Shown: in pieces, positions 42,290 to 47,553 of the stretch
How positions within the stretch are numbered: position 1 is the stretch's first letter
Layout: every line of letters begins with the position of its first letter
NCBI RefSeq assembly: GCF_020177265.1
Contig: NZ_JAIVMC010000008.1
Location: 124,001-188,000 of the forward strand
Direction of reading: 5' to 3'
From: Pseudooceanicola marinus
GTDB lineage: Bacteria; Pseudomonadota; Alphaproteobacteria; Rhodobacterales; Rhodobacteraceae
Length of the DNA: 64,000 nucleotides
Notes under the pieces: generated by a model
Databases searched by the model: none
What the model was told of the DNA's origin: nothing
What the model saw: only the letters and a program-made list of their open reading frames with translations
Program-made: the position numbers and the translations under genes

Positions 42290-42441
42290 CCGCCCTCGAT
42301 CTGTGCAGGGCGCTGTCGGCTGTGCACCGGCAGGCCGCCCGGCACCCGCGGATGAGACGAAAACGACAGGCGGTGTCGTTTTCCTGCGCGTAACGCGTCG
42401 GGTGCGCGCGCTTCTCTGGGGCAGAGCCCAGGGAGATGCCC

Positions 42442-44043
42442 ATGACCGATCGTCCGACGCCCCCCGCCGCAGAGACCGCAAGCGCCTCCAGCCCGGCCCG
42501 GAAGGGACGCCGTGGAGGCGGCCGGGCCGGGTCTGCCGCCCGGCGCGGGGATCACGCGATCCAGCAAAGCGCCTGGCGCATCCCGATCAACATCGACGCC
42601 CCGACCGAGCCGCTGGACGACGACGGCGTGATGGCCGTCCATGGCGCGGCCATGACGGTGCTGGAGGAGATCGGCGTCGCCTTCCTCCATCCGGAAGCGC
42701 GGACCATCCTGGCGCAGGCGGGCTGTATCGTTGACGGCGAGGTGGTCCGCATGGACCGCGATTTCGTCACCGAGATGCTGGCCCTGGCCCCGTCGGAATG
42801 GACGCTGAGCGCCCGGAACCCGGCGCACGACCTGCCGGTCGGCGGGCGGGCAATCCTCTTCGGCAATGTCTCCTCGCCGCCGAACTACTGGGACATGGAC
42901 CTGGGCCGGAAGATCCCCGGCACCCGCGCCCATTGCGCCAACCTTCTGCGGCTGACCCAGTATTTCAACTGTATCCACTTCGCCGGGGGCTACCCGGTCG
43001 AACCTGTCGACATTCACCCGTCGATCCGCCATCTCGACGTGCTGTTCGACAAGCTGACCCTGACCGACAAGGTGCCCCACGCCTATTCGCTGGGCGCCGA
43101 ACGGGTCGAGGACGTGATGGAGATGGTGCGCCTGTCGGGCGGCTGGGACGAGGAGACCTTCACCGCGCGCCCCCACCTCTATACCAACATCAACTCCACC
43201 TCGCCGCTGAAGCATGACTATCCGATGCTGGACGGCTGGATGCGCATGGCGCGGCGGGGGCAGGGGCTGATCGTGTCGCCCTTCACCCTGGCGGGGGCCA
43301 TGGCGCCGGTGACCATGGCCGGCGCGGTGGTGCAGTCGCTGGCCGAGGGGCTGTCGGCCATTGCGCTCGCGCAGGTGATCCGCCCCGGCGCGCCCTGTGC
43401 CTTCGGCACCTTCACCTCGAACGTGGACATGAAGTCGGGCGCGCCGGCCTTCGGCACGCCGGAATACATGCGCGCCACCCAGATGACCGGCCAGATGTGC
43501 CGCCACTACGGGCTGCCGATGCGCGCCTCCGGATCCTGCGCGGCGAACGTGCCGGACGGGCAGGCGATGTGGGAGACGTCCAATGCGCTCTGGGCGGCCG
43601 TGCAGTCGGGCGCCAACGTGGTCTACCACGCCGCCGGCTGGCTGGAGGGTGGGCTGATCGCCAGCCCGGAGAAATTCGTCATGGATTGCGAGGTGATCCA
43701 GCAGATCCAGCGCTACCTGGAGCCGGAGATCTGCGCGGTGGACGAGGGATCGCTGGCGCTGGAGGCGATGCGCGAGGTGCGCCAGGACGGCCATTTCTTC
43801 GGCATCCCCCATACCCAGGACCGCTATACCACCGCCTTCTACCAGCCCTTCCTTTCGGACTGGCGCAACTTCGAGGCCTTCCAGCTGGCGGGTGAGGTCT
43901 GGACCGCCGAACGCGCCCATGTCACCTGGAAACGCATCCTGGCCGAGTTCACCCCGCCGCCCATGCCCGACGCCAACCGCGCCGCGCTGGAGGATTTCGT
44001 GATCCGTCGCAAGGAAGAGGGCGGGGCGCCCACCGATTTCTGA
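42442..44043 (+). CDS. Trimethylamine methyltransferase (MttB) family protein, non-pyrrolysine type
   Basis: A 533-aa protein of the MttB superfamily, the corrinoid-dependent methyltransferases that act on quaternary or tertiary amines such as trimethylamine, glycine betaine or proline betaine. It has the TIM-barrel segments FGNVSSPPNYWDMDLG, PHLYTNINSTSPLKHD and VVYHAAGWLEGGLIASPEK. There is no in-frame amber codon, so it belongs to the non-pyrrolysine group such as MtgB. Neither a corrinoid protein gene nor a MtgA-like partner is adjacent. The first 45 residues are a basic, disordered extension. I chose the second ATG because GGGAG is 6 nt upstream, and the first is too close. Confidence 0.86.
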   Translation: MTDRPTPPAAETASASSPARKGRRGGGRAGSAARRGDHAIQQSAWRIPINIDAPTEPLDDDGVMAVHGAAMTVLEEIGVAFLHPEARTILAQAGCIVDGEVVRMDRDFVTEMLALAPSEWTLSARNPAHDLPVGGRAILFGNVSSPPNYWDMDLGRKIPGTRAHCANLLRLTQYFNCIHFAGGYPVEPVDIHPSIRHLDVLFDKLTLTDKVPHAYSLGAERVEDVMEMVRLSGGWDEETFTARPHLYTNINSTSPLKHDYPMLDGWMRMARRGQGLIVSPFTLAGAMAPVTMAGAVVQSLAEGLSAIALAQVIRPGAPCAFGTFTSNVDMKSGAPAFGTPEYMRATQMTGQMCRHYGLPMRASGSCAANVPDGQAMWETSNALWAAVQSGANVVYHAAGWLEGGLIASPEKFVMDCEVIQQIQRYLEPEICAVDEGSLALEAMREVRQDGHFFGIPHTQDRYTTAFYQPFLSDWRNFEAFQLAGEVWTAERAHVTWKRILAEFTPPPMPDANRAALEDFVIRRKEEGGAPTDF

Positions 44044-45643: not shown

Positions 45644-45793
45644 GAAAACCCCTTTACTCATTTGGGCCGACCCTATGGCCTTCGGCGGCCGAGGGCCAGC
45701 GGTTCCGCCCCGCGGGCCGCGCTTGGGCGGGCCGCCGTTGACCCGTTCTTAAACCTCCCGCGCGATGCTGCGGCAAAGGACGACGGGCCTGTG

Positions 45794-46381
45794 ATGCACG
45801 GATTGATCAACAGATCGCTGCAATGTTTCCTGCGCGACACCTATGGGGCCGCGCTGTGGGGGGATGTCGTGGCCGACGCCGATCTGCCGGTGGCGGAATT
45901 CGAGGCGATGCTGACCTATGAGGACGCGCTGACCTTCCGGGTGCTCGACGCGGCAGAGGCGCGGCTGGCCAAGTCCCGCGCGACCCTGCTGGAGGATCTG
46001 GGAACCTACCTGGTGTCCCACCCCCATAACGAGGGGCTGCGCCGCCTGCTGCGCTTTGCCGGCGTGGGGTACGAGGATTTCCTGCATTCGCTGGACGAGC
46101 TGCCGGATCGGACGCGGCTGGCCGTCTCTGATCTGGATCTGCCGCAGATGGAGCTGCGGCAGCTGTCGGGCAACCGCTATCGTATCACCTGTTCGGCCTA
46201 CCCGCCGGGCTTTGCTCATGTACTGGTCGGTATCCTGCGGGCCATGGCCGATGACTATGGTGCGCTGGTGATGCTGGACCACGCGGGCCATCACCAGCAG
46301 GAGGAGGTGATCGAGGTGACGCTGGTCGAATCCGCCTTCGCCGAGGGTCGGGCCTTCGACCTGGGGGCGCGCGCCGGATGA
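45794..46381 (+). CDS. H-NOX (heme NO-binding)-like protein lacking the proximal histidine
   Basis: A 195-aa protein aligning over its whole length with bacterial H-NOX domains. It opens MHGLINRSLQ and has the central FLHSLDELPD and C-terminal VLVGILRAMADDYG segments. In true H-NOX the LDxLH motif supplies the heme-binding histidine near 102-105. Here the residue is Pro104. The YxSxR motif that holds the heme propionates is also altered: around residues 132-136 only Ser134 is kept. It probably does not bind heme in the usual way. Its stop overlaps the start of a diguanylate cyclase gene (ATGA), the classic H-NOX partner. The frame extends far upstream, but homology starts here. Confidence 0.85.
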   Translation: MHGLINRSLQCFLRDTYGAALWGDVVADADLPVAEFEAMLTYEDALTFRVLDAAEARLAKSRATLLEDLGTYLVSHPHNEGLRRLLRFAGVGYEDFLHSLDELPDRTRLAVSDLDLPQMELRQLSGNRYRITCSAYPPGFAHVLVGILRAMADDYGALVMLDHAGHHQQEEVIEVTLVESAFAEGRAFDLGARAG

Positions 46382-47553
46382 GCCTTTCGCGACCAGACCG
46401 TGATGCCGCGCTGTCGCCCGGCCGCCGCCAGCCAGCGGAGGATGCGGCGGGTGAGGGGAGAGGGCGTGCCATTGCGGAGGCGGCAGGCCTGCCCCGGGAG
46501 GCGCCCGGCGACAGGACCGGCGACGCGACCGGCCCGGTGCTGATCGGCCAGGCGGCGCATCCCCTCCCGCCGATGCCGCAGGGGGCTTTGGATATCCTGG
46601 CGCCGATGCACCTGGTGCTGGATGCCACCGGCCACGTGATCCACGCCGGCCCCACGATGCAGAAGCTGCGCCCCGACGTGCCGATGGCCGGTCAGAGGTT
46701 TCTTGAGCTGTTCGAGCTGTCGCGCCCGCGCGCGGTCGACAGCATGGCGGCGCTGCTGGCCTCGGCCGGGATCAAGCTGCACCTGCGGCTGCGCGACGCC
46801 CCGCGCACGGCGCTGAAGGCGGTGCTGGCGCCGCTCTTGCCGGATGAGGCCGGGCGGGCCGGGGCCGTTGTCACCTTCTCCTTCGGGATCTCGATCCTCG
46901 ACGGGATCCAGACCTACACCCTGCATTCGGGCGATTTCGCCCCCACCGACCTGACCATCGAGATGCTCTACCTGATCGAGGCGAAGACCCTGGCGATGGA
47001 GGCGTCGCGCACCCTCAACCTGCGGCTTCAGGGGGCCAAGATCGCGGCGGAGGAACAGGCCTTCACCGATACGCTGACCGGGCTGAAGAACCGCCGCGCG
47101 CTGGATCACATCCTGGCCCGGCTGATCCGCACGGGGCAGGATTTCTCGCTGATGCACCTGGATCTGGACTGGTTCAAGCAGGTCAACGACGGCCACGGCC
47201 ATGCCGCCGGGGACTACGTGCTGCAGCACGTGGCCCGGCTGATGCTGGATGAAACCCGCGCCGGCGACACCGTGGCGCGCATCGGCGGGGACGAGTTCGT
47301 GTTGCTGTTCCACAACCTGACGAAACGCGCCCGGATCGAGGAAATCGCGACGCGGCTGCTGGTCCGGCTGGAACAGCCCGTCACCTTCGAGGGGGCGGTC
47401 TGCCGGATTTCCTGTTCCATGGGCACCACGCTGTCCTCCGCCTATGACGCCCCGCGGGCGGATCAGATGCTGGCGGACGCCGATGCGGCGCTCTATGCCT
47501 CGAAGCATTCGGGTCGGGGGCGGCACAGCTTCCACGTTCCGCCACCCGGTTAA
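46378..47553 (+). CDS. Diguanylate cyclase with H-NOX-associated (HNOBA-like) domain
   Basis: A 391-aa protein. A disordered N-terminal 65 residues are followed by a PAS-like HNOBA region (about 70-205), as found in H-NOX partner proteins. Then come a coiled-coil linker (205-235) and a GGDEF domain (235-385) with an intact GGDEF signature and an I-site RAGD five residues earlier. It should synthesise cyclic di-GMP and be controlled by the overlapping H-NOX-like protein. There is no EAL domain. The start overlaps the previous gene by 4 bp, so production is coupled. Confidence 0.88.
   Translation: MSLSRPDRDAALSPGRRQPAEDAAGEGRGRAIAEAAGLPREAPGDRTGDATGPVLIGQAAHPLPPMPQGALDILAPMHLVLDATGHVIHAGPTMQKLRPDVPMAGQRFLELFELSRPRAVDSMAALLASAGIKLHLRLRDAPRTALKAVLAPLLPDEAGRAGAVVTFSFGISILDGIQTYTLHSGDFAPTDLTIEMLYLIEAKTLAMEASRTLNLRLQGAKIAAEEQAFTDTLTGLKNRRALDHILARLIRTGQDFSLMHLDLDWFKQVNDGHGHAAGDYVLQHVARLMLDETRAGDTVARIGGDEFVLLFHNLTKRARIEEIATRLLVRLEQPVTFEGAVCRISCSMGTTLSSAYDAPRADQMLADADAALYASKHSGRGRHSFHVPPPG

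Follow-up and report, generated by a model that had tools for sequence, protein, structure and literature searches.

The window analysed here, a 64,000-nucleotide stretch of the Pseudooceanicola marinus genome, carries an H-NOX gene followed directly by a diguanylate cyclase gene. The first-pass annotation had described the first as overlapping, through the bases ATGA, a GGDEF gene, and verification of both open reading frames and their coordinates bears this out. The features discussed below are:

45738..45752, forward strand: CtrA-like box TTGA-N7-TTAA, 41 bases upstream of the H-NOX start codon
45794..46381, forward strand: H-NOX (HNOB) gene of the Group 5 type, 195 aa
45797..45799, forward strand: codon of the conserved His2, in the pocket; Nostoc H-NOX has Tyr2 here
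46103..46105, forward strand: CCG codon of Pro104, at the proximal heme-ligand position
46190..46204, forward strand: CSAYP (residues 133–137), aligned at the site of the canonical YxSxR
46378..46381, forward strand: ATGA overlap of the two genes; a four-base overlap is also found in 181 of 258 group pairs
46378..47553, forward strand: HNOBA-like/GGDEF diguanylate cyclase gene, 391 aa
46570..46737, forward strand: HNOBA-like N-terminal region of the cyclase (residues 65–120)
46951..47061, forward strand: long linking helix of the cyclase (residues 192–228, from AF2 secondary structure)
47257..47268, forward strand: cyclase I-site RxxD (R294–D297); RxxD in 254 of the 256 partners counted
47284..47298, forward strand: cyclase catalytic motif GGDEF (residues 303–307); GGDEF in all 256 partners counted

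The H-NOX protein matches the HNOB profile PF07700 at 79.4 bits (cut-off 25.5) over residues 2–157, and Foldseek places its AF2 model (mean pLDDT 93.3) closest to 2o09 (TM 0.81/0.86), identifying an H-NOX fold that superposes on H-NOX structures over residues 1–178 (a statement of residue ranges, not residue pairs). The end-to-end alignment claimed at first pass nearly holds: matches extend to residue 157 (Pfam), 176 (another profile) or 178–184 (structures), leaving the last ∼11–15 residues outside. Alignment to H-NOX sequences, proposed earlier as a check along with modelling of the fold, places Pro104 at the position of the heme histidine, opposite His105 of Nostoc H-NOX with no gap nearby, as originally read from the CCG codon. 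Ser134, in contrast, was misassigned by one position as the surviving residue of YxSxR, since Nostoc Y134, S136 and R138 align with C133, A135 and P137; Ser134 is not the motif serine and none of the three motif residues is left. Position 112, a proline in all rows taken as canonical, is serine in the window protein.

Among the Rhodobacteraceae searched, 296 of 394 genomes (295 of 393 genera) contain HNOB, and the other 98 gave no HNOB match at E<=0.001; 160 of the 164 genomes lacking listed match positions were searched a second time. From 300 starting loci, nine were excluded (the window's own place, test fetches, plasmid pieces and a weak own hit), and each of the remaining 291 yields an HNOB protein. 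Without duplicates these come to 280 sequences, of which 31 are canonical and 249 belong to the window type, one of the latter (L199) assigned by eye. Eighty of the 249 are the best 80 of 536 relatives in a named scan and 169 come from a genus sample that is non-random, 72 of its sequences having been picked from better-scoring matches. The window's own genome has a single HNOB match above the cut-off; the nearest named record, at 99% protein identity, is from Pseudooceanicola marinus. Residue 104 is histidine in all 31 canonical proteins; across the 249 group sequences it is P in 175, H in 19, S in 16, A in 10, R in 7, N in 6, Q in 5, G and E in 3 each, T in 2, and D, Y and K in one each, with the share of histidine differing by source (2/80, 12/72, 0/47 and 5/50). 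In 206 of 249 the position is thus taken by P, S, A, G or T, residues that do not usually ligate heme. The YxSxR motif is found in 29 of 31 canonical sequences and in none of 248 group sequences. The earlier annotation treated the loss of the histidine as a feature of one copy; the loss is real, but it characterises a published set, the Group 5 H-NOX proteins (PMC8738867; PMC5588039), of which fewer than 10% have the histidine and most have proline, and whose describers ask how members sense (Lee-Lopez & Yukl 2022, PMC8738867). The window H-NOX is a further member of this already described group, which is common in Rhodobacteraceae.

The nearest relatives outside the group (L305–L310) retain both the histidine and YxSxR, and their partners contain an HNOBA-like region, so the histidine is probably ancestral. 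Among these partners one reads by eye as a histidine kinase and another has GGDEF (L305, the same place as L083); at this last locus, in genome G294, a canonical H-NOX with both histidine and YxSxR lies beside an HNOBA-like GGDEF partner, an arrangement resembling that of an ancestor. On a FastTree tree built with column 104 left out and containing 21 His rows, three from canonical proteins, the distinction between His and not-His requires 16 changes, against 18–21 (mean 20.4) in 200 shuffles, although support is low for so short a protein and 16 is not an exact number of events. The His rows are somewhat clustered, beyond every shuffle, yet widely interspersed with His-less ones, and do not form two clades. 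P, R, Q, N, D and Y are each one base away from a His codon, which fits repeated separate losses; some regains of histidine on the tree are possible.

The partner protein scores 132.8 bits against PF00990 and, judged by its sequence, carries both hallmarks of a diguanylate cyclase, the GGDEF motif and the RxxD I-site. Its HNOBA match (16.3 bits) is below the Pfam cut-off of 23.4; of the 50 cyclases aligned, 44 match HNOBA at E<=0.1, that of the window among them. In the AF2 model (mean pLDDT 86.8) residues 1–56 (46378–46545) are nearly all below 50, and they include a stretch of about 50 N-terminal residues absent from most relatives (the median relative has 343 aa); the true start may lie downstream of the called one. 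Counting duplicates, 258 of the 259 profile-assigned group loci have downstream a GGDEF gene that shares the HNOBA-like N-terminal region, and in the remaining one the partner position is cut by a contig end; L199 is likewise followed by a GGDEF cyclase gene. Canonical H-NOX genes of the same family, with L199 moved out, have a cyclase on the downstream side, the side checked, in only 2 of 31 cases.

The pocket lining was compared at positions from the accessible part of PMC6225106, to which we added V5 and from which we selected 14 to be summed by volume. The mean summed volume is 2081 cubic angstrom in His-bearing (n=18) and 2089 in His-less members (n=230), with 2130 for the window protein and 2049 for that of D. 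shibae, whereas Nostoc and three canonical relatives have 2258–2313. Crude as it is, this measure points to a group pocket that is lined by smaller residues and has not been filled, leaving a place where heme could still be accommodated. A PDB entry for H103G S. oneidensis H-NOX in the Fe(II)CO state, taken at the level of the database record, suggests that a His-mutated H-NOX apparently can hold heme. His98, put forward at first pass as a substitute ligand, is not supported in that role: 160 of 248 sequences retain it, as do 11 of the 18 that also have the normal histidine, and by our own helical-phase reckoning it appears badly placed on helix F, facing away from the pocket. His2 and Cys133 are candidates for holding a cofactor, with no clear link between the presence of either and the loss of His104. 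His2 occurs in 235 of 248 independently of residue 104 (16 of 18 His104-bearing members have it), and its Nostoc counterpart Tyr2 touches heme-mimic ligands in the portion of PMC6225106 available. Cys133, at the place of the motif tyrosine, is common but not invariant (163 of 248; 117/175 with Pro104, 8/18 with His104 and 38/55 with other residues).

Genes for NO metabolism were also examined: a search of the window's own genome for nirS, NnrS and nirK gave no nirS, no NnrS and only nirK-like matches below the cut-off, with probes that work, since NnrS was matched in 39 and nirS in 18 of 80 genomes searched. By these markers, nirS is present in 8 of 17 His-bearing and 10 of 62 His-less genomes, and 41 of the 62 random His-less genomes have neither nirS nor nirK. 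The operon shares a further feature across the group. The CtrA box is TTAA-N7-TTAA, and the motif TTNN-N7-TTAA, which we call CtrA-like from the resemblance of its spacing, lies within 120 bases upstream of the gene in 191 of 248 cases and in a 120-base intragenic stretch in 0 of 248. Shuffles give a mean of 5.3 and other spacings 4–46 of 248, a sharp preference for 7; the TTAA is centred ∼48 bases 5' of the H-NOX start, and the full palindrome TTAA-N7-TTAA occurs upstream in 1 of 245. Throughout the family, to judge by this pattern, the H-NOX operon may be part of the CtrA regulon; for D. shibae, the available part of PMC7232146 reports that the H-NOX gene depends on CtrA. Near the operon, at 42436–44043, lies an MttB-like gene, presumably a trimethylamine methyltransferase; a similar-looking gene is seen by eye in D. 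shibae (L113). MTTB also appears in the neighbourhood legend of PMC8738867.

A protein that has lost its ligand and motif could simply be a vestigial sensor in decay, and some observations lean that way: position 104 is filled by 12 residues besides histidine, 98 family genomes are without an HNOB match, and a few copies appear damaged. The HNOB matches of L190 (genome G271) and G176 contain an internal TAA, and that of G036 is split over two overlapping pieces, which may reflect loss of the gene in a few lineages or assembly errors. The argument against decay made at first pass is nonetheless supported. The dN/dS of the window gene against six near relatives (L003–L008) is 0.040, 0.230, 0.241, 0.170, 0.250 and 0.356, the cyclase is present at all 258 loci not cut by a contig end, and the available part of PMC5588039 reports a phenotype for the P. 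denitrificans knockout. Residues R83, R84, R87, D153, D154, Y155 and G156 and a C-terminal GRxFxL (185–190) are moreover near-invariant in the group. Taken together, these points make decay highly improbable. The RR..R patch (residues 83–87) is encoded at 46040–46054 and the DDYG patch (153–156) at 46250–46261, with GRxFxL outside the H-NOX match. Most near-invariant group residues differ from those of canonical H-NOX, and our guess is that these patches include a cyclase-binding surface.

If the gene is maintained, what does its product do? In the canonical trigger NO binds heme and breaks or strains the Fe–His bond, and with the histidine, the YxSxR clamp and proline 112 all gone this trigger cannot run in the standard way. 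We therefore regard it as probable, if by no great degree, that the window H-NOX is a cyclase-regulating subunit no longer reliant on a heme–His bond. Encoded with its HNOBA-GGDEF partner, it would bind the cyclase and set cyclic di-GMP output, by analogy with related systems; we infer both this physical contact and the absence of His-type heme ligation, and the sign of control proposed from P. denitrificans genetics would be inhibition. As the pocket lining is that of His-bearing members, we think that control comes either from occupancy of the pocket, by another hydrophobic ligand or a loosely held heme that residue 104 would not hold, or from permanent partner binding. The first-pass proposal of a mode that departs from canonical heme-bound NO sensing is plausible in this light; its His98 ligand route is not supported. 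It is possible, though rather less than probable, that the protein has remained an NO sensor based on heme, which the pocket and another residue (His2 or Cys133) would hold. The near-equal pocket lining, the retention of His2 and Cys133, and the greater frequency of nirS in His-bearing genomes, which fits NO sensing at least there, speak for it, as does the D. shibae relative, reviewed as a heme NO sensor inhibiting its cyclase in the part of PMC8846402 available. That protein, however, has the histidine and is hence no evidence for His-less members; His2 is kept equally with His104 and so does not behave as a replacement, Cys133 is missing in P. denitrificans HAMBI_2443, and most random His-less genomes lack both nitrite reductase markers. 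Less likely again is a regulator that, without the Fe–His tether, is locked in the NO-type conformation and acts as a constitutive cyclase inhibitor or scaffold controlled by expression. Against it, the differences in Z are small in a comparison based on the window model (Manduca active and inactive structures 16.9 and 16.3, 0.6 apart; Nostoc 2o09 20.9), and under permanent inhibition there would be no point in an obligate cyclase partner if the two were not expressed separately, yet the genes overlap.

More broadly, and tentatively, we suggest that in most gene-carrying Rhodobacteraceae a gas sensor may have become either a ligand sensor independent of heme–His or a cyclase regulator permanently resembling the NO state, the histidine being optional and lost many times from a pocket otherwise left as it was; we think this wider picture doubtful but worth stating. 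Were it true, even His-bearing members such as that of D. shibae may not need the histidine for cyclase control. The reviewed NO–heme data concern the His-bearing D. shibae protein, and the knockout data a species with a His-less one (P. denitrificans). With relatives that do and do not have the histidine but share pocket lining and partner, the need for an Fe–His bond in H-NOX signalling becomes directly testable, a question of relevance to soluble guanylate cyclase as well.

Among known systems, the P. denitrificans Group 5 H-NOX (Pden_3719 seeds the group) resembles the window protein in having proline at the heme-histidine place and an adjacent GGDEF gene; the record from strain HAMBI_2443, a different strain of the same species from the source of the Pden_3719 knockout, is 40.5% identical over 97% of the window protein. 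PMC8738867 states that Group 5 has no conserved cysteine, whereas C133 is present in the window protein and most of the group. In the parts of the sources available, Kumar & Spiro 2017 (PMC5588039) describe the P. denitrificans protein as lacking the axial histidine, as in R. sphaeroides, and the hnoX mutant as partly biofilm-deficient with BapA absent; cyclic di-GMP could not be measured in P. denitrificans (PMC12582929), and the authors of these papers still regard the protein as an NO sensor (PMC5588039, PMC12582929). The H-NOX/Dgc1 system of D. shibae (Dshi_2815) is alike in belonging to the same group by sequence, in its cyclase partner, in lacking YxSxR and in its CtrA-like box, and differs in retaining the proximal histidine. 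That residue was read as LDDLHDR from the only HNOB match of the genome G035, which is D. shibae DFL12 (a plasmid contig is 100% identical to NC_009959); D. shibae is credited with a single H-NOX gene in the accessible portion of PMC6473078. The reviews available to us in part (PMC8846402, PMC7232146), citing Bedrunka 2018, describe this protein as an assayed heme/NO sensor inhibiting Dgc1, and as it has the histidine the result is not simply transferable to His-less members. What is new here is the contrast between histidine in D. shibae and proline in P. denitrificans HAMBI_2443, which we did not find stated in the literature searched (subscription papers lay largely outside it); the His-less group itself was already published. 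Nostoc Alr2278 (2o09) and the sGC beta1 H-NOX, the closest solved relatives by sequence, share the fold of the window protein and have His105 and YxSxR, of which it has neither. Finally, the heme-free H-NOX of the sGC-alpha type offers a natural example, like the window's, of a cyclase-system H-NOX without the heme histidine (human) or YxSxR (moth). There, heme is blocked by an N-terminal extension (PMC8196705, as far as its available part goes); the window H-NOX, whose called open reading frame begins with the first residue of the domain, has no such extension.
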